Virus record (IMG/VR): IMGVR_UViG_3300022188_000013
Location: 1-55,875 of that record
From: a virus
Direction: 5' to 3' (one strand)
Length of the DNA stretch: 55,875 nt
This document shows, one piece after another, positions 1 through 32,594 of the stretch; the stretch's first letter is position 1; the number at the start of each line of letters is the position of its first letter. The notes below the pieces were generated by a model. That model had not been told where the DNA came from, made no database searches, and was given only the letters and a program-made list of their open reading frames with translations. Both the position numbers and the translations under genes were made by a program.

Positions 1-3000
1 ATTAGTTATGCGAGAGATTCTCGTATAGATATTGCACAGAGAGCGGCCGCACGTGCGGCTAAGGATTTGGCCAACTATGAAGAAGAGTATAAAACGTGCT
101 CCTTAGTATAGCGATATACTAAGCAAACCGTGAATATGCTGGAACATCTTGTTAGGTTACAAGTACTAGTCATTAGACAGTAAAAATCTTGTAAATAGAG
201 AAAATCAGCAGAAATGGAGATTTTTATGATAATAGAAAAAGAGATATTAGATAATATATACAACGGTAATGTGTTTGAAACAGCAGCTTTATTGAGAGAA
301 TCAGTACAAACTATTATGGCGTCATTAAAGAAACATGAGATTAAGTTTGATACACCTAAACATATCTATAGTGGACTTAGAAATACAGATTTTTCTGCAT
401 TTCAGAAAAGTTTATTAATAGGTAGTGTTATTGGTGACGGTCATATAGAAAAAAGGTCTAACTTAAAAAATGCTTTGTTTAGGGAAGATCATGCTGTCGG
501 CCAGATCGAATGGTTACGATGGAAACACAAAAATTTAAAACCGTTTACAACTGCTAATATGTGGGAAACAGATAGAGGAAAAAAAGCATTAATGCCTGAT
601 GGGCGTGGTGGTAAGAAGTATTATAATATACAGAAGGTGTGTGCTATGACCACTGGAAGTCACCCATATATAACTAAATTACATGGTTTATTTTATAAAG
701 ATAAAATAAAGGTTTTACCAAAAGAATTTATAGAAAATCATTTTGATTTGATAGCGTTGGCAGTTTTGATAGGTGACGATGGTAATTTTTGTGAAAATAG
801 TATTAGAATATGTACTGATAATTTTACTAAAGATGAAGTTTACTTTTTGGCTGACGTGTGTTCTAAATTTTATAATAGTAGAATAACTGTTAGAAAAGAG
901 AAGGTAGATAGGTACAGGGTAGTATTTACAAGAATAACAAAGGACTTAGATTTTTTTTGTAAAATGAAAGAAGTATTACCGTTATGTATGCATCATAAAG
1001 TTTCTCCAGTTCTCAACGAACACCAAACGGCTACTCAATAAAGAGTAGATGGTATGTTCTGTCCTGCATGGAGATATGCAGAGTCAAGAAGAAATTCTTG
1101 GCCGCCTGAAAAGGAGTAATATTTCAGGTCATAAAAGTAACAGTGAAGCGGATGGAGGGTAATTATGCCCGCCGCCACATCTTCATTTTCAGGTAAAGGG
1201 CTCTTGGGGTCAAGGCCAGCCCCGATTTATGAAATTCAGCCATCATCTACTGGTGCTGGTTATCTTTCTAAAGAACTTATTAACAAAATGATTGTTGGTT
1301 TTAAGAGAATTGGTAGAACATTGACAGACCTTTATGTATCCCCTGAGGATAGAATGACGCAGTATGTTAATAAAAATTTAAATAGTATTAAAACTACTGC
1401 AGTGTCCCGTACTCACGTAAGTGAGTGATGAAAAAAGAACTATATGCTGGAAACCCCTTAGAACTAAACTTACTGATATGTAAAAATAGTTTAGATTGGG
1501 CAATCAGCAGGCAACTTTTAATGAGGAGCCTCAACGACTATACGTTCTTCCCCCAATTATGGGGTGATGATATAGTCTGAACTCATAGGAAACTATGAGA
1601 GGGGAAGTCGAAGAATTTCCCCCGCCTAAAGAAATTTAGGTCATAAAAGTAACAGAATGGCAGCGGATATAAGGGAATGGACGGATTACAAAAGTAGTCC
1701 CCCTATTTGGAAACGAGTAGGTGAAAAGTTAGTGAATTCGGTGGAAGCCCTATTCTTTGGATCGAGAAGGGTAATACCGAGCCAAGCTTGTGCATAACAA
1801 GAAGGTGTAACGACTATAGGAATTTGTTATAAAATGTTTAATGATGAAAAAGGTTTAAGTTTAGATAGAAAAAATAATTTAGTTGTTCAGTCAAAGCATC
1901 AAGCAAATAGTGCTATTATAGGTATGTTGCTTGGAGATGCATCTATGCGACGTTACGTTTTGAAAAAGGCAGAGAATAATAGGGTGAGTATATTGAAGAA
2001 TAGTCGTGTTCAGTTAGATGTTACTCATTGTGGAAAACAATTAAATTATTTATTATGGAAAGAATCGATACTAAGGGCTTATATTAAGTTTTGTAAACTA
2101 ATTAAAGATCGTTCCAAAGAAGACGAAGGGTTTATATATTATAAAAAAACATCTTTGGTTAGTTCTACTAGAAATTTGATTTATTTATATAGAAAATTTT
2201 ACAGCTCAGGTAGAAAGATTGTTGATAGAAAATTATTAAATAGGCTTACAGATTTAGGTCTGGCTATATGGTTTATGGATGATGGAAGTTTAATTCCACA
2301 TAGTTTTAAGCCTGATGGTGAAATTAGAGCTTTAAAATTGAGATTACATACTTCAGGTTTTAATTATGATGAGCATGTGATCATGAAAGAGTATTTTAGT
2401 ACCTTTGGGGTTGATTTTAATATTACTATGGATAAACAGTATTTCCATTTATCCACAGGTAAGATGAGTTCTATTTATAATTTTATTGACAGGATAAAAC
2501 CTTTTGTTGAATTAGTAGGTTGTATGGGCTACAAAATTAAACATTATAATAAATTTTTTAGTACTAACCGCCCTATATATAAGGGCGATGATATAGTCTC
2601 CTCTGCATAGTAATATGCAGCACTATTAAAGAAATTTGATAGTCCATTTTATGATGGAAGAAGAGGACAGATATAGATCCAGTAACCCGTAGAGAGATTT
2701 TTCAGGCTTCTGGTATGGGTTCTATTTGGAATGTAAGTCTTGAAGAGATTCAGCATCTTGGAGCAACTGGTTTGTATAACGTTAATGGCAGTACTTCTGC
2801 TTACGGTAAGTTCATTGCCGACGGTTCTGAAGAGTTTAATGCTTATACTCTAGAAAACCCGAATGTAACTAATGCTGATGGTACTGTCAATACTTTAGGT
2901 GAAACTCAGGTTATCGGTTTTGATCTTACAGAAAACGATTCACTTGTTATGCCTATTAGGAAAGAGTTCGAAGCTTATGATGATCCAACGTTACTTAGAG

Positions 3001-3095
3001 TACAAAAACAGGGTTTCTTTGGATGGGCTGAGCTTGGATTTGCCTGTTTAGACAGTAGAATGCTTGGTATGGGTATTATAGATAGAAGTCTATAA
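1..3095 (+). CDS. Major capsid protein (HK97 fold), 5'-partial, four exons
   Basis: The start lies outside the window. Proposed exons are 1-90, about 1156-1350, 1660-1686 and 2667-3095 (stop TAA 3093-3095), giving 246 residues here. The joined protein runs SYARDSRIDIAQRA..., then LYVSPED/AADIREWTD/TDIDPVTRREIF (slashes mark splice joins), and ends with NDSLVMPIR and GWAELGFACLDSR. The spacing of SPE-DIR-W-IDPVTRREIF and of the NDS-VMPIR/GW-E-G-LD tail fits what I know of a family of phage major capsid proteins, which is why I place the junctions there. Each 5' junction ends in U and can pair with an internal guide sequence through a U.G pair. The ATGs at 1165 and 2715 are read as internal codons, although 1165 has a GGAGGG upstream. 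The first intron's 3' boundary (1155 or 1158) is the least certain. The protein forms the icosahedral shell; a strong terminator follows. Confidence 0.82.
91..1155 (+). ncRNA. Group I intron 1 of the capsid gene
   Basis: Exon GAGTAT (85-90) pairs with GTGCTC (96-101), giving a U.G at the splice site. P2 is CTTAGTATA/TATACTAAG (102-119). Conserved P/Q elements are TGCTGG (137-142) and CAGCAG (206-211). R is TCAACGAACA (1013-1022) and S contains TGTTC (1055-1059); P7 pairs GAACA with TGTTC, a compensated variant of the GACTA/TAGTC seen in the sister introns. P8 is CTACTC/GAGTAG (1031-1048). The 3' part has the shared CATAAAAGTAACAG tail (1130-1143). The 3' splice G is uncertain: 1155 or 1158 keeps the capsid frame, while 1145 would resemble the sister introns but breaks the frame. 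It carries a LAGLIDADG gene. Confidence 0.8.
226..1041 (+). CDS. LAGLIDADG homing endonuclease in capsid intron 1
   Basis: This 271-residue protein should cut intronless capsid alleles and so spread its intron; it may also act as a maturase. The two LAGLIDADG helices read LLIGSVIGDGHI and LIALAVLIGDDGNF, each with the acidic active-site residue (GDG, GDDG), so it is a single-chain monomeric type. The N-terminus (LDNIYNGNVFETAALL) looks like a short helix-turn-helix. I take ATG 226, preceded by GGAG at 216-219, instead of the in-frame ATG at 214, which lies nearly on the Q element. The C-terminus runs into the ribozyme: the codons for LNEHQ are the R element and the TAA stop lies in the P8 loop, so translation to the end would disturb the intron core. 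Confidence 0.85.
   Translation: MIIEKEILDNIYNGNVFETAALLRESVQTIMASLKKHEIKFDTPKHIYSGLRNTDFSAFQKSLLIGSVIGDGHIEKRSNLKNALFREDHAVGQIEWLRWKHKNLKPFTTANMWETDRGKKALMPDGRGGKKYYNIQKVCAMTTGSHPYITKLHGLFYKDKIKVLPKEFIENHFDLIALAVLIGDDGNFCENSIRICTDNFTKDEVYFLADVCSKFYNSRITVRKEKVDRYRVVFTRITKDLDFFCKMKEVLPLCMHHKVSPVLNEHQTATQ
1351..1659 (+). ncRNA. Group I intron 2 of the capsid gene, ORF-less
   Basis: P1 pairs exon GGAT (1347-1350) with GTCC (1404-1407), with a U.G at the splice site; the long loop is closed by GCAGTA/TACTGC (1359-1364/1395-1400). P2 is ACTCAC-GTAA-GTGAGT (1411-1426). P is TGCTGG (1445-1450), Q CAGCAG (1505-1510), R TCAACGACTA (1531-1540), S TAGTC (1573-1577), P9 CCTAAA/TTTAGG (1625-1640). The end is AACAGAATG with the terminal G at 1659, identical to tail tube intron 1. 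At 309 nt it is the only intron here without an endonuclease gene. An alternative 5' site at 1410 is possible but would insert about 20 residues that interrupt the capsid family pattern. Confidence 0.78.
1687..2666 (+). ncRNA. Group I intron 3 of the capsid gene, different subgroup
   Basis: P1 pairs exon GGAT (1683-1686) with GTCC (1697-1700). The P/Q region differs from the other four introns: TCGGTGGAAGCCC and GGGTAATACCGAGCCAAG, which resembles tRNA-Leu-type introns. R is AACGACTA (1809-1816) and S contains TAGTC (2594-2598). The homing endonuclease lies between R and S, i.e. in the P8 region, not between Q and R as in its neighbours. It lacks the CATAAAAGTAACAG tail. The 3' splice G is placed at 2666, which joins WTD to TDIDPV in frame; 2670 with exon end 1687 is the alternative. 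Confidence 0.75.
1834..2610 (+). CDS. LAGLIDADG homing endonuclease in capsid intron 3
   Basis: A 258-residue protein with two LAGLIDADG helices, AIIGMLLGDASM and LGLAIWFMDDGSL. The first ends GDA where its relatives have GDG, but keeps the acidic residue. Unlike the other intron endonucleases here it has no obvious N-terminal helix-turn-helix. Start ATG 1834 has only a weak AGGA far upstream. The last codons (GDDIVSSA) are the S strand of the P7 helix, so coding and ribozyme core overlap at the 3' end. Expected role: cleavage of capsid alleles lacking intron 3, only one 27-nt exon downstream of the site of intron 2. Confidence 0.85.
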   Translation: MFNDEKGLSLDRKNNLVVQSKHQANSAIIGMLLGDASMRRYVLKKAENNRVSILKNSRVQLDVTHCGKQLNYLLWKESILRAYIKFCKLIKDRSKEDEGFIYYKKTSLVSSTRNLIYLYRKFYSSGRKIVDRKLLNRLTDLGLAIWFMDDGSLIPHSFKPDGEIRALKLRLHTSGFNYDEHVIMKEYFSTFGVDFNITMDKQYFHLSTGKMSSIYNFIDRIKPFVELVGCMGYKIKHYNKFFSTNRPIYKGDDIVSSA

Positions 3096-3229: not shown

Positions 3230-3310
3230 GTTGAATGTTTAAATTACTTCCCTTTCCCTTTCTACAGATTTATAAACTAACCAGTAAAGAGGTAGGGGGA
3301 TTTGTTATAC

Positions 3311-4114
3311 ATGAAAATTTTGATTACTGAAGATTGTTTAGAAGATATAGATCAATTTTCCTATATTTATACTAGAGACGTGTTTAGGAGAAAGAATCTT
3401 TATTATAAATTTAAACTAGAATGTAGTGTATGTGGTCAGTCTTTTTTTATGCGGATGACTTACCCTACAAATGTATGTAGTATTGTATGTTCCAGTAAAT
3501 TAAAAAGTGTAAGAGATAAAATTTCTTTGTCTTTATCTGGGTTAAAACGATCGTCTTCAGAGTGTGTTGCTATAGCAAAGAGAATGTCTAAAGGTGGTGT
3601 TGTAAAGAAGAATATACCTTTATTCGATACTTACGCCAAGCAGTTAGTTCCAATAGAAGTTGTTAGAAATATTAACGGGGTTCTAGAGGTTAGATGTGCT
3701 AATTGCAATAATTGGTTTGTCCCAGGAAGAACTTCTGTAGAGGGCAGAGCTCAATATATAAAGGGTAATATAGATAGGGAGTGCAGACTCTATTGTTCTG
3801 ATGTTTGTAAACATAGTTGTTCTATATTTAATAAACACGAACACCGTAGTGATACGAGTAGTAAACAAAATAAATATTTTACTAGTGTACAGCTTAGTGT
3901 TTGGTCTGCGGAAGTAATTAAGAGGGCCGGATTTAAATGTGAGTATTGTGGTGAACCAGCTAAACATGCACACCATGAGCGTCCGAAAAAGCTTGAACCG
4001 TTCTTTGCTTTAGACCCAGATAATGGGGTTGCCTGCTGTGTTAATTGTCATTATAAATATGGGCATATCGGTGATTGTTCCACTGTTAATATATCTAAAG
4101 CAAGTCCATGTTAA
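3311..4114 (+). CDS. Free-standing HNH homing endonuclease
   Basis: A 267-residue protein with three Cys-rich modules. The N-terminal one has CSVCG and paired Cys further on; the middle one has CANC and YCSDVC; the C-terminal one is the HNH nuclease proper, CEYCG...HAHHERPK...NGVACCVNCHYKYGH, with the two zinc knuckles framing the His pair and Asn. A segment around SLSLSGLKRSS resembles NUMOD-type DNA-binding modules of homing nucleases. ATG 3311 is chosen because GGGGGA (3295-3300) lies about ten bases upstream; the in-frame TTG at 3302 is almost on top of it. It sits between terminator-closed capsid and a second nuclease gene, with no intron of its own, so it is probably a free-standing mobile gene. 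Confidence 0.85.
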   Translation: MKILITEDCLEDIDQFSYIYTRDVFRRKNLYYKFKLECSVCGQSFFMRMTYPTNVCSIVCSSKLKSVRDKISLSLSGLKRSSSECVAIAKRMSKGGVVKKNIPLFDTYAKQLVPIEVVRNINGVLEVRCANCNNWFVPGRTSVEGRAQYIKGNIDRECRLYCSDVCKHSCSIFNKHEHRSDTSSKQNKYFTSVQLSVWSAEVIKRAGFKCEYCGEPAKHAHHERPKKLEPFFALDPDNGVACCVNCHYKYGHIGDCSTVNISKASPC

Positions 4115-4131
4115 GGAGAAATAGTTATTAT

Positions 4132-5580
4132 ATGAGTTTATTATGTTTGACAGAAAAAATCAATAAAAAACGTAAGTATAAAAATAAGAAATGTGCGATG
4201 TTAGGGTGTGGTGTGGTTTTTACTCCGACATCTGGAAATCAAAAATATTGTGATGCTTGTAAAGAAAAAGCTAAAGCTATAAGGGATAAATCACAGTGGA
4301 GAGTCAAGAATAGAAAACGTAACGGGCATGTTCAATACAATAGGAAATGTTTAGCTTGCGGTACAGAATTTATAACATGCTATTCAAAACAGAAATACTG
4401 CGGAACAATTGAGTGTGAGAGATACAGAAAGAAAATTAATAGTGTTGTTATTGAAGAAAAAAGAAATAAATTGCGTAAAGAAGCTAGGGCAGTAAAGCGA
4501 GCATTGGCTAGACTAGACAACTTAAAAAACGTAGAATTATTTTTAAATTCCAATAATTATGAACTTTTAGATTCTTCTAACTACATAAATTCACATAGAG
4601 GTAAATTATTGGTAAAGTGCCCTAATGGCCATGAGTGGCAAACTACATTTCATAATTTTAAAGATAATAAAAATAGATGTTACAGTTGTTATGTTAAAAA
4701 TAATTATGTTTCTAAACCAGAACAGAAAATCCGTGATTTTATAGACTCGAATTTTCCAGATCTAGAAGTAATTTACAACGATCGTACACAAATACGCCCA
4801 AAAGAACTTGATTTATATTTTCCAGACCATAATCTGGCTGTAGAGGTGTGTGGTTTATATTGGCATTCTGATACTGCTAATGGTGTGGAACGTGATTATC
4901 ATTATAACAAAATGACAAGTTGCTGTAAAAAAGGAATAAGACTTATAACTATATTCGAGGATGAGCTTTATAATAATTTTGATGTAATAATGTCTAGAAT
5001 AAAGCAGGCTTTAGGTGTTACTAAAAATATAATATACGCTAGAAAATGTACTATAAAGCCTATTGAAAGTAAGGAAGCAAATGATTTTTTTATTGCGAAT
5101 CATTTACAAGGAAGATCCACTGCGAAGAAACGTTGGGGTTTGTTTTATAATGGTAGTCTATCTGGTGTTTGTAGTGTTGGTAACATTATAAGGAAACATA
5201 CGTCTAAAGAAGATGTGTTGGAATTAAAGCGTTTGTGTTTTCTTCCAGGTATAAGTGTGGTTGGGGGAGCAAGTAAATTGTTTAAAAGAGCAATTGAGTT
5301 TGCAAAGGAAGAAGGATACACTGAGATAAAATCTTATTGTGATATGAGGTATGCTAATATATTTAATCCTATTTACGAAATATTGGGATTTAGCTTATTA
5401 ACATATACTAAGTATACTCCACATTACTTTAAAAATGGGGTCCGGTATAGGAATATGTCTCTGAGAAAAACTCCCAAAGAGCGTTTAACTGGGAAAACGG
5501 AATTAGAATTGCGACAGGAACAAGGGTATGATAGGATTTGGGATTGTGGGCATAGAACTTATACTTATCATATAAACTAA
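4132..5580 (+). CDS. VSR/EDxHD-like homing endonuclease with zinc fingers and C-terminal domain
   Basis: About 482 residues. Two N-terminal Cys modules (CAMLGCG..YCDAC; CLACG..YCGTIEC) are followed by a zinc-ribbon module (CPNGHEWQTTF..RCYSC) that recurs in the HNH proteins at 19392 and 25421. The nuclease core KELDLYFPDHNLAVEVCG followed by YWHSD puts E225, D227, E238, H245 and D247 in the order expected for the VSR-like EDxHD family (I-Bth0305I group). The last 170 residues (NHLQGRS.., VVGGASKLF.., YDRIWDCGHRTY) match a C-terminal domain common in free-standing phage endonucleases, perhaps acyltransferase-like. ATG 4132 follows AGGAG at 4114-4118; the in-frame ATG 4108 overlaps the previous stop and has no ribosome site. 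Confidence 0.8.
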   Translation: MSLLCLTEKINKKRKYKNKKCAMLGCGVVFTPTSGNQKYCDACKEKAKAIRDKSQWRVKNRKRNGHVQYNRKCLACGTEFITCYSKQKYCGTIECERYRKKINSVVIEEKRNKLRKEARAVKRALARLDNLKNVELFLNSNNYELLDSSNYINSHRGKLLVKCPNGHEWQTTFHNFKDNKNRCYSCYVKNNYVSKPEQKIRDFIDSNFPDLEVIYNDRTQIRPKELDLYFPDHNLAVEVCGLYWHSDTANGVERDYHYNKMTSCCKKGIRLITIFEDELYNNFDVIMSRIKQALGVTKNIIYARKCTIKPIESKEANDFFIANHLQGRSTAKKRWGLFYNGSLSGVCSVGNIIRKHTSKEDVLELKRLCFLPGISVVGGASKLFKRAIEFAKEEGYTEIKSYCDMRYANIFNPIYEILGFSLLTYTKYTPHYFKNGVRYRNMSLRKTPKERLTGKTELELRQEQGYDRIWDCGHRTYTYHIN

Positions 5581-18364: not shown

Positions 18365-19392
18365 TGGTAGATTATGGTTATAATTACACAATAGACCAGT
18401 TTTTAAATAACAAATATGATCTTAGCAAGCTTGACAGGGAAATAAGATCTTCGAGTATTACTGTAGCAATCAATTATTTAACTGGCACAGAAGAAGATGT
18501 TGATATTTATTTTAAGAACTATCTTCAAGTAGATGAAGTTACTACTTTAAGTGGTATAGTTGCTGTGCATGACGGTATAGATGATAGTATAGACTACCAG
18601 CCTGTAAAAATAATGGCGGTGGATGAAGGTACTCATATGAACACAAGTATTTATGATGTTCCTATTGATCGTTCTGGAAAATTAAGAGTACATCAAACAT
18701 CACGTAAACTTGGTACGAAAACATATTGGACTGGGTGTGGAGACGATCTTTCAGATATAACTGATGTTGGTGGTGGGAATCAGAAATTTTTATTGAATCA
18801 TACCATTTCTGGAAGTTTAACTGAGGCTGTATATATAGATTTTAATATTTGTTTAAATGAGACTTGGATCCATGAAGGATTAATTAATTGGGAAAATTGT
18901 AAAGGGGACTCTGTAACGTTAGAAATGGTTAGCAGAGCAACGGGTATTGTTTCTGGAACAAATACAAATTATAATTTATATGGTGGTTACATGGTTATAC
19001 CTGCGGATGGAGATGGGACTATTGAGGTTACCAGTGATATAACATCACCAATAGGTGGATTAGTTTATATGCCAAATAATGATCTTGATGAATCACCGAC
19101 TGCATTTTGGAATGCTGATTTTAATTCTAGTACAGGGTTATATGAAAATATTAGCCCGGCTCCTTATGGAGATGGAAGGTATAATATGTTTGCAGGTGAA
19201 ATACTATTTGCAAGATTTACAAATAGTATTTTGCTCCTAAATAGTGGTTTCATGCCATTATCTTGTTCAGACACAGATGAATTAGGAAACGGTTTCAGAT
19301 TAAAAATGACGGGGGAAACTAATATAGATAAAGGAGATCATGAGTGGAGTGTTGCAGCTACTATAGTGTTTCATAGAGCTAGGATTAGATAA
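18364..19392 (+). CDS. Virion structural protein, unknown
   Basis: A 342-residue protein starting MVDYGYNYTIDQFLNNKYDLSKLDREIRSS, whose first part is listed here as MVDYGYNYTIDQFL. ATG 18364 overlaps the previous stop and has GGAGGG upstream. The N-terminus (DREIRSSSITVAINYLTG..VDIYFKNYLQVDEVTTLSGIVAVHDG) resembles a domain seen in other phage fibre or baseplate proteins. The long C-terminal part is beta-rich (GGNQKFLLNHTISGSLTEAVYIDFNI..; MTGETNIDKGDHEWSVAATIVFHRARIR), like a receptor-binding lectin-type domain. No catalytic motif. It ends TAATG into an HNH remnant, so it may be the last of a co-transcribed fibre set. Confidence 0.68.
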   Translation: MVDYGYNYTIDQFLNNKYDLSKLDREIRSSSITVAINYLTGTEEDVDIYFKNYLQVDEVTTLSGIVAVHDGIDDSIDYQPVKIMAVDEGTHMNTSIYDVPIDRSGKLRVHQTSRKLGTKTYWTGCGDDLSDITDVGGGNQKFLLNHTISGSLTEAVYIDFNICLNETWIHEGLINWENCKGDSVTLEMVSRATGIVSGTNTNYNLYGGYMVIPADGDGTIEVTSDITSPIGGLVYMPNNDLDESPTAFWNADFNSSTGLYENISPAPYGDGRYNMFAGEILFARFTNSILLLNSGFMPLSCSDTDELGNGFRLKMTGETNIDKGDHEWSVAATIVFHRARIR

Positions 19393-19757
19393 TGAGAAAA
19401 AAATTAACAATAGATTATATTTGTTCAGAATTTAAAAAAGAAGGTTATATTCTTTTGACTGAAAAATATATAAATAACAGTCAGAAATTAGATTACATTT
19501 GTCCAAAAGGACATAAACATAGTATTAGTTGGAGTAATTGGAATCACCCTGAAAAATACAGACGTCCTTATTGTTCTGGTAAAGATTCTACATTGGCTGT
19601 GCATCATATAGATTATAACAAAAAATTTTGCGGGGCTGAAAATTTAATTACCGTTTGCAGATCTTGCAATTCTAGAGCAAATACAGATAGAGGGTGGCAT
19701 AAAGCTTGGTATAAAGCAATTTTATATAAAAGATATGGATATGTTTATGAAGGATGA
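19392..19757 (+). CDS. Internally deleted HNH homing endonuclease
   Basis: A 121-residue protein. Its first 55 residues (EGYILLTEKYINNSQKLDYICPKGHKHSISW, seen as EGYILLTEKYINN and CPKGHKHSISWSNW) match one zinc-ribbon module of the 299-residue HNH protein at 25421. It then jumps directly to the nuclease C-terminus: LAVHHIDYNKKF..NLITVCRSCNSRAN. The NUMOD-like linker, two further modules and the first zinc-knuckle Cys pair are missing, leaving only a stray YC. The HHI and C-x-x-C/N residues remain, but with an incomplete metal site it is probably inactive or a domestication product. ATG 19392 overlaps the stop of the structural gene. Confidence 0.75.
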   Translation: MRKKLTIDYICSEFKKEGYILLTEKYINNSQKLDYICPKGHKHSISWSNWNHPEKYRRPYCSGKDSTLAVHHIDYNKKFCGAENLITVCRSCNSRANTDRGWHKAWYKAILYKRYGYVYEG

Positions 19758-25420: not shown

Positions 25421-26320
25421 ATGAGTAGGAAACTAACATATGAATTTGTAAAGGAATCTTTTGAGAAGGAAGGATATACTCTTTTGTCTACTGAGTACAT
25501 ATGTGCTAACAAAAAATTAGATTATGTTTGTCCAAATGAGCACAAACATTCTATTAGCTGGAATAATTGGCAACAAGGCAAACGATGTTACTTCTGTTTT
25601 GGGTCAGAAAAGCACACTATTGATTATATCAAATTGTGTTTTGAAAAAGAAGGTTACACACTTTTATCTAATGAATATATTAATAACAGTACTAAACTTG
25701 ATTATATTTGTCCTAAAGGTCATAAACACAATATAACTTTCGGTAATTGGATTAGTGGTTATAGATGTCCAACATGTGCAAACATAATTAATGGAACTAG
25801 ACAAAGAAAGCGTGTTTTTGATATAAAAGTTGCGTTGCGTGACGATGATTACACCCTTTTATCTGTAAAATACTCTTTAACAGGTCGTACTGTATTAAAA
25901 TGTAAATGCCCAATAGGACATGTGTATGAGGTTAGGTGGAATTGTTGGCAACAAGGACAAAGATGTCCAACATGTAGGGGTATTAAGATGTCTATAGACA
26001 GATCAGGCCCCAATCATCCAAACTGGAAAGGTGGTATTTCTTGTGATCCTTATTGTGATGCTTGGTCAGATAAAGAGTATAAAAATGACATTAAAAACCG
26101 TGATGGAAATATGTGTTTAAATCCAGAATGTTGGAAAAAAGATAACATACTTTCTATTCATCATATTGATTATAATAAGAAAAATTGTTCTCCTAATAAT
26201 TTAATAACAGTTTGTAGAAGTTGTAATTCTAGGGCAAACAAAGATCGTAAATGGCATACGTCTTGGTACCAAGCTGTCATTAAAAATAGATACATTACAC
26301 TGGGAGCTGAATATGGTTAG
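25421..26320 (+). CDS. HNH homing endonuclease with three zinc-ribbon modules
   Basis: A 299-residue protein. Three modules of about 55 residues share the pattern F-x-K-EGYTLLS-x-EYI-(8)-K-LDY-x-CP-x-x-H-KH-(I/S)-W-x-x-GxRC-x-x-C (roughly residues 5-60, 64-118 and 130-180). A NUMOD3-like GPNHPNWKGG (about 197-206) leads into the HNH nuclease: CLNPEC, IHHIDYNKKN, NLITVCRSCNSRAN. It sits between two neck genes, its 3' end overlapping the start of the next by eight bases. No ribozyme motifs flank it, so it is free-standing. The 19392 gene is a deleted relative. Confidence 0.87.
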   Translation: MSRKLTYEFVKESFEKEGYTLLSTEYICANKKLDYVCPNEHKHSISWNNWQQGKRCYFCFGSEKHTIDYIKLCFEKEGYTLLSNEYINNSTKLDYICPKGHKHNITFGNWISGYRCPTCANIINGTRQRKRVFDIKVALRDDDYTLLSVKYSLTGRTVLKCKCPIGHVYEVRWNCWQQGQRCPTCRGIKMSIDRSGPNHPNWKGGISCDPYCDAWSDKEYKNDIKNRDGNMCLNPECWKKDNILSIHHIDYNKKNCSPNNLITVCRSCNSRANKDRKWHTSWYQAVIKNRYITLGAEYG

Positions 26321-28711: not shown

Positions 28712-31700
28712 ATGGCTAGAAATAGAATTATATATGCATCCCAGAGTATATGGGCAGAGGGGGAAGTTCTATATAGGGTGCAATCCCTTGGAACAACTAC
28801 TACTTTCACTTCTGAGGACATAAATTCGATTGTGTCCCTTATCTGGTAACAGGTAAGCTAAAAATTTTACTGTATGCTGGAAACCCCAGTTAAGTTTTAG
28901 ATACTAACCAATTGGTAGTGATAATTCTAAAATTATGGGCAATCAGCAGGAAAGGGGTTATAATGAAAAGAAATAAAATAGGAAAAGAGAGATTAGTTGC
29001 TCTTTTAAATGAGTTTGGTTCTGTTGGTAAAGTATCATCTATGCTATCTATACCATATACAACTATTTATTACTGGTATAAAAGTTATGATATAGAGCTT
29101 TTACCGAGTTGTATGACTATATATGAAGAATTACGTAGTGTGCCCTTATCGGATACTCATAAATCAGTAATAGTTGGGTCTGTTTTAGGGGATGGGTCTT
29201 TGGTTAAACAAAGGCACTCTAAAAATGCTAGACTTCAAATAGGACATTGTACAAAACAGCTCGGGTATTTAAAATGGAAAAAAGGACTACTAAACCCTTT
29301 TGTAAATAAAGTTACTAAGGGAGAGTCTGCCGGTAAAAAAATAATATGTGGAAAAGAGTCTTTTTCTACAGGATATTGGTTAATAAATACTATATCTCAT
29401 CCTGGTGTTAATGATTATTTTGACAGGTATTATATTGCTGGTAAGAAAAGGGTAGACAGCTCTATTATAGATGAACTAGATTGGTTGGCAACAGCTATAT
29501 GGATGGCAGATGATGGTAGTTTTACTCTTAGAGATACTAATGGGTATTCATTAAGAGCTTCTGTGGCCACTTGTAGTTTTACTTTAGATGAACTTGCGAT
29601 TTTAAAGATAGCTTTTAGTAAATTTTATAAGGGGTCTATAACTGTAGACACATATAATAATACACTAAGGCTTGGTGGCGGAACCAAATATATAGATAAT
29701 TTTTTAGACCGAATTTCAGATATTTTACCAGAGTGTATTCATTATAAACTCGCTCCTCAGAGACTACACGTAAAACCCCTTTTTTATAAAGGGTGAAGAT
29801 ATAGTCCGAACTTCGTAGGAGACTACGAGAGGTTGCTTCGCAGTAACCCGCCTGGAAAATTTTTCAGGTCATAAAAGTAACAGAATGTTTCGAATTAGGG
29901 CATTTAGATATTGTTGATGTTGTTGATAATTAAAGTTGTCCTTCATTTAAAGTAATTTTTATGAAGAACTTCACGATATGCTGGAATACCCAGTCAAGCC
30001 TTTACTACTACCGATATCGGAGTGATAATGTAAAGGATATGGGCGATCAGCAGGGAGCGGATTATGATAGAAAAAATTAAAAAAAGTGATTTGAAAAGAT
30101 TGTATAATGAGTTAGGGTCTGTTTATAAAGTAGCAGATAGATTAGGAAAACCTCCATCCACGGTGTATTACTATATTGATAAATATGATATTGATATTAG
30201 TAAAAGAAGATTTCCATACACTAAGGATGAGTTAATTGATTTACACAGAGAGTGCGGTTCAATTACTAAAGTGGCAGCTAAATTATCTAGAAGCTATTCT
30301 ACTGTTAGATATTGGTACAAAGCATTTAATATTGTGCAGAATGCTTCTGGAATGACCGTTTTTCAAGAGTTAAGAAAAACACCAATGTCCCAAAAACATA
30401 AGTCTGCTTTGGTTGGTAGTATGTTAGGGGATGGTGGGTTATGGTTAGCCCCACACAGTAAGAACGCTAGGTTATATGTTAGTCACTGTGAAAAACAATT
30501 GGGTTACTTGAAATGGTTACATAGTTTATTCCAGCCTTTTTCTAGGCCTATAGTACAGACCGAGGTAGCTGGCAAGAAGATTATAGGGGACTATGTAGTA
30601 CAAGGGAGCAATTTTTACAGGTTTTACACTATAGCCCATCCTGATGTTACTAGAGTATTTCATTCTTACTATAGAAAAGGATTAAAGCATGTAACCTCTA
30701 CTGCTATTATTGATGAGGTAGACTTATTGTCAATGAGTATATGGTTTGCAGATGATGGGTCAATATCAAGAAATAAACAAGGTGTTCCGGTTAGCTGTAC
30801 GATATCCACAAATAGTTTTTCATACAAAGAGCAAATAATACTGGTTGATGTTGTACGTAAGTTTTTTAAAGGTACAATTGGAATTAGAAAGCAAGGTGGA
30901 TACTATAATGGTACTAAGCGGACAGACTATGTGATTTCTATGTCAGGTAAGGAAGCGGTTAATGATTTTTTGACATTAATAAAGTTAGTTCTTCCTGAAT
31001 GTATATACTATAAACTATCATAATTTGACCCTCAACGACTGTGTGTGAAGCTCCTAACATTAGCGTTAGGATGATGATACAGTCTGAACTTGCTGGAGAC
31101 AGTAAGAGGGGAGGTCGAAGTGCCGCCCCCGCCTAACAGGTAAAGCTGAGGTTATTATAAGTAACAGATTTGGATGTCCCAGCGGTGGCTGTGACTCTCA
31201 ACACCAACGATTTCGGTGATGTAGCTACTTTAGCAATTTTGGCCCAGGTACCTGCAGCAAAGCGTGTTATGGCTGAGAATGCGACTTCAGCAGCCAACGC
31301 AAACATAGTGTCAGGGGCGACCTACCTCCATGGTGTCTCCTTGGCTGACTTTGCTGTAACATGTGGTAACCTTACCGGTATTACTATGTGGGCACCTGTT
31401 CAAGGTGAATGTAGTCTTGGTACTCTTGCAAATGATATTGACCAGACTTTATTTTTGGATGAGGTTTATATCAATAGTCTTGAGTTTAGTTATACTACCG
31501 GTGCTAATGCAACAGAGAACTACGGAGCTGAAACAGACAATAAGATGTGGTTGCTGAATAGTGGGGCTTTTGTTAACCACTTTATGGCCACAATCTCTGG
31601 TACTGTTATGAACTTTGATTTTAGTGCAATTGGCTATGATACTACATCTGTAATTCCTGATCTTTCTACAGGAAACTATGCTTTTTTGAGAAAAGATGAG

Positions 31701-32594
31701 GATGGTTCACCTGCAATTACTTTGTTTGATGTTGCTAGTAATGAAAAGGTTAATTATCCAATGATGAAAGGAGTTGCTGCTAATACAGATGCTGAGTCTA
31801 AGACTTTTGTTTTTGATGAAAGTGACGGTACTCTATATTTCCCAGCTGGTCCTTCACCTGCAGTTACTGTAGCAGACGGCGATGAAATTGAAATTATTTA
31901 TGCTGCAGATAAGTATTCGGATCCAATGAATACATATTTTGTAGAAAAAACTGACGGAGCTAACGCTGATGTTGGTGCCTTACGTCAGGGTCAGGTAGAA
32001 ATTTATATAATTGATGGTGATGACGCAGCAGCTGCATGGCGTTTGACTGGTGTTACAATTTCTGCTGATCTTACTCGTGAGCCTCTAACTGAGCTTGGCC
32101 ATCTCGGTCCTTATGATCGTCCGTTGACTCTGCCTATTCCTCTTACTGTAACTGTAGATTCTACAGCCGGTGATCTTGAGAATTGGGCTAGATTTTCTGG
32201 GCAGATCGTTGAGTTCGAAGATGGTACTATGTCCGACATCGATCTTAATGACCTTATGAATAAGGATGATCTTATGCTTATGGTCAAGGTTTATGAACAA
32301 ACCGATGAGGAAGCTGGCGGTACTGGCGTAAAACGTAAAGCTCTTACTGATAGTGTTATTGGTGAGCAGCAGTTCTTGGACGGTGTATTACAGCCGGCTT
32401 ATACTGCTAATGACTTAGAATACGCTCTTAAGACTATTGTAGTAAAGAATCTGAAAATTACTGATGAGGGAATGACTCTCGATGTCGGTGCGAATGCGAC
32501 ACAGACATTTGGTTTCCGTTCTACCAATGATTTATTTGTGGTCAAGGGTGATCTTTCTGCCAATTTGGCTGCTGGACTAACACGTGCTGTTTAA
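28712..32594 (+). CDS. Major tail tube protein, three exons
   Basis: Proposed exons: 28712-28821, 29888-29930 and 31173-32594, 1,575 nt in total, 524 residues. The joined N-terminus reads MARNRIIYASQSIWAEGEVL..FTSED/IFELGHLDIVDVVDN/DVPAVAVTLNTNDFGD, continuous and without gaps, which supports the junctions. Internal repeats and the beta-rich composition with a late DLNDLMNKDDLMLMVKVYEQ segment fit a tube protein; order before chaperones and TMP agrees. The last exon is richer in C-ending codons than its neighbours, as expected of a highly expressed gene. An unspliced reading stops at 28847-28849. The TTG at 31170 is not a true start; it spans the splice junction. AGGAGG precedes ATG 28712; a terminator follows the stop. 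Confidence 0.83.
28822..29887 (+). ncRNA. Group I intron 1 of the tail tube gene
   Basis: P1 pairs exon GGACAT (28816-28821) with GTGTCC (28832-28837), U.G at the splice site. P2 is CTTATCTG-GTAA-CAGGTAAG (28838-28857). P TGCTGG (28875-28880), Q CAGCAG (28944-28949), R with GACTA (29762-29766), S TAGTC (29802-29806), and the shared tail CATAAAAGTAACAGAATG ending at the terminal G 29887. Exon start bases (TCGAAT) can also pair with loop ATTCGA (28824-28829) as P10. Carries a LAGLIDADG gene. Confidence 0.87.
28963..29796 (+). CDS. LAGLIDADG homing endonuclease in tail tube intron 1
   Basis: A 277-residue protein. One N-terminal helix-turn-helix (LLNEFGSVGKVSSML..YTTIYYWYKSY) precedes LAGLIDADG helices VIVGSVLGDGSL and LATAIWMADDGSF. 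ATG 28963 with AAAGGGG just upstream is preferred over an upstream in-frame GTG at 28912 that lies within the P-Q region. The C-terminus (LHVKPLFYKG) is encoded by the ribozyme's P7-P8 segment and the TGA lies within P8. It is a close paralog of the endonuclease in the next intron (shared KNARL, HC-KQLGYLKW, AGKKII, LPECI-YKL). Confidence 0.87.
   Translation: MKRNKIGKERLVALLNEFGSVGKVSSMLSIPYTTIYYWYKSYDIELLPSCMTIYEELRSVPLSDTHKSVIVGSVLGDGSLVKQRHSKNARLQIGHCTKQLGYLKWKKGLLNPFVNKVTKGESAGKKIICGKESFSTGYWLINTISHPGVNDYFDRYYIAGKKRVDSSIIDELDWLATAIWMADDGSFTLRDTNGYSLRASVATCSFTLDELAILKIAFSKFYKGSITVDTYNNTLRLGGGTKYIDNFLDRISDILPECIHYKLAPQRLHVKPLFYKG
29931..31172 (+). ncRNA. Group I intron 2 of the tail tube gene
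   Basis: P1 pairs exon GATAAT (29925-29930) with GTTGTC (29935-29940), U.G at the junction. P2 is CTTCAT/ATGAAG (29941-29966). P TGCTGG (29979-29984), Q CAGCAG (30048-30053). P7 is GACTG (31037-31041) with CAGTC (31080-31084), a compensated pair compared with GACTA/TAGTC. P8 CCTAAC/GTTAGG. The tail reads ATAAGTAACAGATTTG with terminal G 31172. Only 43 nt of exon separate it from intron 1. Confidence 0.86.
30064..31023 (+). CDS. LAGLIDADG homing endonuclease with duplicated HTH in tail tube intron 2
   Basis: A 319-residue protein. Two helix-turn-helix units in tandem (LYNELGSVYKVADRLGKPPSTVYYY and LHRECGSITKVAAKLSRSYSTVRYW, each below given by landmarks GSVYKVADRLG and GSITKVAAKLS) precede the LAGLIDADG helices ALVGSMLGDGGL and LSMSIWFADDGSI. 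Its single-HTH paralog sits in the preceding intron, so either this copy duplicated its module or the other lost one. ATG 30064 follows GGGAG. Unlike the other intron ORFs it ends (TAA 31021-31023) before the R element. Confidence 0.87.
   Translation: MIEKIKKSDLKRLYNELGSVYKVADRLGKPPSTVYYYIDKYDIDISKRRFPYTKDELIDLHRECGSITKVAAKLSRSYSTVRYWYKAFNIVQNASGMTVFQELRKTPMSQKHKSALVGSMLGDGGLWLAPHSKNARLYVSHCEKQLGYLKWLHSLFQPFSRPIVQTEVAGKKIIGDYVVQGSNFYRFYTIAHPDVTRVFHSYYRKGLKHVTSTAIIDEVDLLSMSIWFADDGSISRNKQGVPVSCTISTNSFSYKEQIILVDVVRKFFKGTIGIRKQGGYYNGTKRTDYVISMSGKEAVNDFLTLIKLVLPECIYYKLS

Follow-up and report, generated by a model that had tools for sequence, protein, structure and literature searches.

Three probable group I introns and a 27-nt exon in a major capsid gene from a large uncultured phage

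The major capsid protein (MCP) gene at the start of IMG/VR virus record IMGVR_UViG_3300022188_000013 is very probably split by three mobile group I introns at strongly conserved codons, with both splicing and mobility inferred. The record, all 55,875 bp of which are called the window here, is a virus fragment classed as linear. Its 5' edge falls inside the MCP gene at about codon 109, so three introns is a minimum for this gene. Each intron would fold as a ribozyme whose internal guide pairs with the end of the upstream exon through a terminal U.G pair. The introns would then excise themselves using a guanosine cofactor, after which exons of 88, 203, 27 and 429 nt would be joined to encode one capsid protein. 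The LAGLIDADG endonucleases encoded by introns 1 and 3 presumably cut intronless alleles at their sites, leading to homing. Intron 2 is probably an endonuclease-less relative of introns that, in other phages, occupy this site and carry an endonuclease, and the 27-nt exon would be the remainder between homing sites that are independent of each other.

Identity of the gene

This region holds the 3' two thirds of an MCP gene that belongs to a large uncultured phage. Contigs with relatives of the window's genes reach 234 kb, and 545 kb in one distant case, which points to large phages. Compared with named phages, the joined MCP gives only weak matches, to phage G gp27 and the Tunturi_5 major head protein. 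A profile of 30 intact relatives matches chain A of 6WKK (phage G gp27) at E 2.3e-16 over residues 14-241, and phrog_2522 (major head protein) is matched by 30/30 intact MCP relatives. By this homology the window gene is identified as encoding a phage G-type major capsid protein homologous to gp27. An AlphaFold model of the MCP, built from a shallow alignment, has a pLDDT of 33 and is uninformative as to an HK97 fold. A scan of IMG/VR yielded 184 relatives; the best 80 of the 184 were compared, and these are unbroken across the 212 queried residues at 84-94% identity. Unbroken homologs also occur in three metagenome-assembled genomes, whose bin labels are not evidence of a host.

Exon-intron map

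Exons were placed with a custom-written spliced protein-to-DNA aligner using the intact 357-aa MCP of relative L006 as the reference. Six unrelated loci, used as a negative control, score 60-91 versus 1170-1670 for capsid genes. The alignment gives introns at 89-1147, 1351-1659 and 1687-2666, and the following features.

1..88, + strand: MCP exon 1, 97% identity to L006 MCP by spliced alignment; P1 with U88.G98
89..1147, + strand: group I intron 1 of 1059 nt, interrupting codon 138, with A as its last base; spliced alignment and covariation
214..1041, + strand: LAGLIDADG homing endonuclease of intron 1, PF03161 E 6e-27
1148..1350, + strand: MCP exon 2, 99% identity to reference codons 139-205
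1351..1659, + strand: group I intron 2, 309 nt without an ORF, separating codons 205 and 206; RF00028 82.3 bits at 1359-1599
1660..1686, + strand: MCP exon 3 (27 nt, AADIREWTD), 9/9 identity to intronless homologs
1687..2666, + strand: group I intron 3 of 980 nt, separating codons 214 and 215; RF00028 halves, P1 GGAUUAC/GUAGUCC
1834..2610, + strand: LAGLIDADG homing endonuclease of intron 3, PF03161 E 1.5e-23
2667..3095, + strand: MCP exon 4 and stop codon, 91% identity to reference codons 215-357

Exon 1, truncated at its 5' side by the contig end, covers reference codons 109-137 and the T of Cys138. Both endonucleases exceed the Pfam cut-off for LAGLIDADG_2. With AADIREWTD placed at 1660-1686 all 9 of 9 reference residues agree; the next best placement in the region gives 2/9.

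Much of this map had been anticipated by a first-pass annotation, which proposed three group I introns in a capsid gene. Its joined frame yields a continuous protein; since more than one set of junctions can do so, the choice between them was made by homology. Homologs are unbroken across all of the insertions, RNA cores are seen in the introns, and the profile match to phage G gp27 (6WKK) fits the capsid assignment. Its end of exon 2 (1350) and its exon 4 (2667-3095) are reproduced by spliced alignment to homologs, and its nine-codon exon is an exact match to the intronless ones. As it had claimed, each 5' exon closes in a U paired to G (U88.G98, U1350.G1404 and U1686.G1697). The residues RMTQYVNKNLNSIKTTAVSR (RMTQYVNK...), which it singled out for comparison with intronless homologs, are found in none of the intact MCP homologs. 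The ORF reading agrees with its expectation that gene callers would report fragments starting at 1165 and 2715. Where callers miss or fragment the MCP in this way, automated surveys are deprived of a marker gene for genomes of this clade.

The covariance-model search that it suggested bears out one intron above the cut-off. RF00028 matches intron 2 with 82.3 bits (cut-off 50). Intron 3 is matched as two halves of 28.6 bits (1675-1852, E 1.3e-4) and 32.0 bits (2511-2620, E 1.2e-5), both below the 50-bit cut-off, and the ORF that divides the core lies between them. Intron 1 is unmatched in the Rfam search because its ORF splits the core; the 3' end of the endonuclease gene overlaps P7/P3/P8.

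Intron 1 and its terminal A

Four distinct relatives have an intron in the same place with an orthologous endonuclease, a splice site after GAGU and an end 4 nt past AACAG. The intron 1 endonuclease has 8 relatives (68-78%), every one of them in same-site introns. P1 is GAGU/GCUC with U88.G98 and is kept in 5/5 same-site introns. For covariation these five introns were aligned with their ORFs left out. The group I fold (P1-P9.1 and P10) has 78 pairs, which are standard in 99% of cells. Compensatory changes are found in 17 pairs versus 6.3 in shuffles and 0-2 when the fold is slid, counts that are not independent events since the sequences are related. These pairs are located in P2, P3, P5a, P9, P9.1 and P10, with changes on both sides in each of P2, P3, P5a, P9 and P9.1. 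The conserved core of P3, P4, P6, P7 and P8 is present, as is the guanosine-binding G-C pair in P7, and P7 is invariant across the five introns. L170 and L174 have A-U as the P10 pair adjacent to the junction where the window has G-C, and because this pair covaries there the 3' exon is taken to start at 1148.

This junction leaves A1147 as the last base of intron 1. The last base of group I introns is near-universally G, and a terminal A combined with an unchanged guanosine-binding G-C pair in P7 should weaken exon ligation. In 32 introns drawn from representatives of 18 distinct capsid genes, a U at the exon end and a G at the intron end occur in 31, intron 1 being the sole exception. When further copies of the A-ending junction were sought, six exact 17-mer matches came up, none of which is a capsid intron.

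It is quite possible, if somewhat short of probable, that this copy of intron 1 is splicing-defective or that an assembly or sequencing error affects its last bases, with other copies ending in G. The last four bases are TGAA in place of the AATG, AACG or AGTG of relatives, the flanks agree, and the junction is shared by no other capsid intron. However, the exon-side P10 base (C at +2) covaries with its guide base, a pattern that points to genuine evolution of the junction and not to random error. There is also a natural precedent in the hexacoral mitochondrial intron ND5-717, which ends in A, as does intron 1, and is still ligated, with exact splicing in vivo (PMC6545197); unlike intron 1 it is mitochondrial and has genes inserted in P8. 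The terminal A may reflect an assembly error, impaired splicing or a genuine omega-A intron of the ND5-717 kind; that intron 1 splices, and how efficiently, is a prediction. If real, the base would be one of the few departures from an almost universal rule of splicing.

Introns 2 and 3 and the 27-nt exon

Intron 2 ends in G1659 and has a P1 of only four pairs, U.G included, closing a 53-nt loop. At its site L295 and L297 have introns of 1,097 and 1,114 nt, whose encoded endonucleases share 56% identity, and the guide GUCC is common to all three introns. Since the same-site introns carry endonucleases and use the same guide, the window's intron 2 seems to have lost its endonuclease. Over 129-228 nt its ribozyme shows 71-87% similarity to introns elsewhere in the MCP gene, and it shares its 3' end with introns at other MCP sites. 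The 3' end of intron 3 differs. This intron has a 7-bp P1 with U1686.G1697, ends in G2666, and encodes a divergent endonuclease whose relatives are only about 21-39% identical. Other introns at its site were sought with a G-anchored pattern, which would overlook diverged codons, and the search returned only intronless capsid genes (GAG codon) and unrelated genes. By their 3' ends and their ribozyme and endonuclease relationships, the introns flanking the 27-nt exon are of two different lineages, in line with the two intron types of the first-pass annotation.

The 5' splice sites of introns 2 and 3 both end in GGAU and both guides are GUCC. Binding of the intron 3 ribozyme to the 5' splice site of intron 2 is therefore conceivable, and skipping of the 27-nt exon is predicted to be possible. 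Frequent skipping would give a second in-frame capsid isoform that lacks AADIREWTD, since loss of 27 nt keeps the frame, and precedents are summarised for Twort orf142 (PMC10136302) and SIOphi (PMC11878797). Such frequent skipping is nevertheless unlikely in the window's gene. AADIREWT is invariant in homologs, so that a skipped product would probably be non-functional, and only at its own site can the P1 of intron 3 form a further three inner pairs. Inclusion of the 27-nt exon in the capsid protein remains the favored reading.

Other readings of the gene

The first-pass annotation had ended exon 1 at 90 and started exon 2 at 1156, so that intron 1 would occupy 91-1155. U90.G96 is another wobble within the same P1, and G1155 yields an in-frame join with an intron ending in the canonical G. 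This placement is very improbable, however, and was rejected. At codons 138-140 homologs read NYEEE-CGW-RVIMP and the 90|1156 junction would read NYEEE-Y-RVIMP, swapping Cys138 for Tyr and dropping Gly139 and Trp140. An alignment of 30 homologs, including one with an identity as low as 68%, shows no variation at Gly139 or Trp140 and conservation of 90% or more at Cys138; the 88|89-1147|1148 junction brings back this conserved Cys-Gly-Trp. The four distinct same-site introns, splicing at GAGU| and ending 4 nt after AACAG, and the P10 covariation also point to 1147|1148. The exon ends were corrected to 88 and 1148 on the basis of homology, the five-sequence covariation and P10.

It is scarcely credible that the gene lacks introns and consists of decayed capsid pseudogene fragments with inserted endonuclease genes: the endonuclease ORFs do break the reading frame, but the joined exons are in frame at 91-99% identity and the insertions are precise, with covarying group I cores.

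Intron sites in the capsid and tail genes of relatives

A survey of 101 capsid loci, which form 74 clusters at 97% identity, found introns in 18/74 clusters (the window counted), a biased figure in that some loci were located via intron sequences. There are 12 insertion sites, after codons 58, 61, 64, 66, 70, 80, 89, 93, 137, 205, 214 and 334 (phases 0, 0, 2, 0, 2, 1, 0, 2, 1, 0, 0 and 0, respectively). Eight of the 12 are packed into about 37 codons, as happens in 0.01% of trials with random placement. Conservation around the sites is 0.957 versus 0.891 for random residues (p 0.0004; 3/348 circular shifts match), as expected because homing endonucleases target conserved DNA. Endonucleases of introns that share one site are orthologous. 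The capsid gene is a family-wide intron hotspot and not the site of one isolated event. With 12 sites, and endonucleases that are orthologous wherever a site is shared, the dynamics of homing, intron stacking and loss of endonucleases can be traced directly.

Short capsid exons are found in L174 (20 nt), L063 (26 nt), the window (27 nt) and L297 (29 nt). The MCP gene is a natural test bed for the minimum spacing of two group I introns. The 20-nt exon of L174, at 2345-2364, lies between introns after codons 58 and 64, the second of which (284 nt) is unmatched by Rfam at its cut-off. The most introns in one capsid gene of the relatives is four, in L058 (2275-5636), where consecutive short exons measure 29, 29 and 40 nt. 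An apparent intron at codon 50 of L016 was excluded as an aligner artefact. Endonucleases linked to the MCP in L138, L151, L157 and L166 are not in introns; these loci have intact, distant capsid homologs (21-22% identity) with a free-standing LAGLIDADG gene immediately downstream, an indication that endonucleases adjoin this capsid gene elsewhere without an intron.

The tail protein gene of the window (28713-32594, start at 28712 or 28713) has LAGLIDADG-bearing group I introns at 28822-29887 and 29928-31172, with a 40-nt exon (29888-29927) between them; a gene caller would be expected to start this gene at 31170. The tail homolog of L319 (4114-5002; also L320 and L321) has three introns of 305, 263 and 276 nt, without room for an endonuclease and all above the Rfam cut-off (89.7, 80.4 and 62.1 bits). 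The exons between them are 13 nt (4419-4431) and 32 nt. A 48-nt tail exon in L348 mismatches the tail protein and was excluded as an aligner artefact. Group I introns have repeatedly targeted the capsid and tail genes of this phage's relatives.

A stronger reading is that the clade's capsid gene is a stacking hotspot, with independent homing introns spaced at 20-40 nt, and at 13 nt in the tail gene, ribozymes that splice adjacent micro-exons, in-frame skipped isoforms, and one intron, in the window, working with a terminal A; in this full form it is distinctly unlikely. Since a phage requires hundreds of copies of its capsid protein, introns this dense would imply efficient splicing of very short exons.

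Comparison with known systems

The arrangement in the window is a denser version of a known kind, and the closest precedent is orf142 of Staphylococcus phage Twort. According to the summary in PMC10136302, where Landthaler and Shub 1999 is cited, orf142 contains three group I introns along with a skippable 23-nt exon; PMC11878797 describes it as later identified as the tail tube gene. On these summaries, both are phage structural genes with three group I introns and a tiny exon between two of them. The window differs in that the gene is a capsid gene of another phage group and the neighbouring introns are of different lineages; exon skipping, given there as demonstrated for Twort orf142, is only predicted for the window's MCP.

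Capsid gene introns are also known. The major capsid gene of mycobacteriophage LittleE has an intron with a LAGLIDADG endonuclease that is spliced in vivo, and a capsid gene intron is known in lactococcal Tuc2009 (PMC3706429). In contrast to the window, these unrelated phages have one intron and no micro-exon. In Bastillevirinae, the phiNIT1 reductase and SIOphi terminase genes have two or three group I introns apiece, along with a small exon and an exon-skipping product (PMC11878797); those introns sit in core DNA-metabolism genes, whereas those of the window are in a capsid gene. Each genome of the Jug huge gut phages has about 18 introns, with essential genes split by group I introns and splicing supported by metatranscriptomes (PMC12363816), but these are gut Bacteroides phages for which terL, nrdD and polymerase are emphasised. 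The major capsid gene of Faustovirus E12 has 13 exons, down to 13 bp, and 12 introns, five of them group I (PMC6247863). Unlike the window's gene, this one belongs to a giant virus of eukaryotes and also has introns of a second, spliceosome-like type. Relative to these published systems, what may be new is the intron density in the capsid and tail genes of one phage clade, and possibly the A-ending intron.

Other genes in the window

An HNH endonuclease gene (3302-4114) lies just downstream of the capsid gene and is directly followed (4108-5580) by a gene whose 490-aa product resembles homing endonucleases and has a Mom/GNAT-like domain at its C terminus. A single open frame of more than 7,030 codons (34784-55873) runs off the contig end; its product is probably a tape-measure-like giant tail protein. 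Between structural genes, 19392-19757 and 25421-26320 encode HNH endonuclease-like proteins with CapR-type repeats, a further sign of a genome rich in homing elements.
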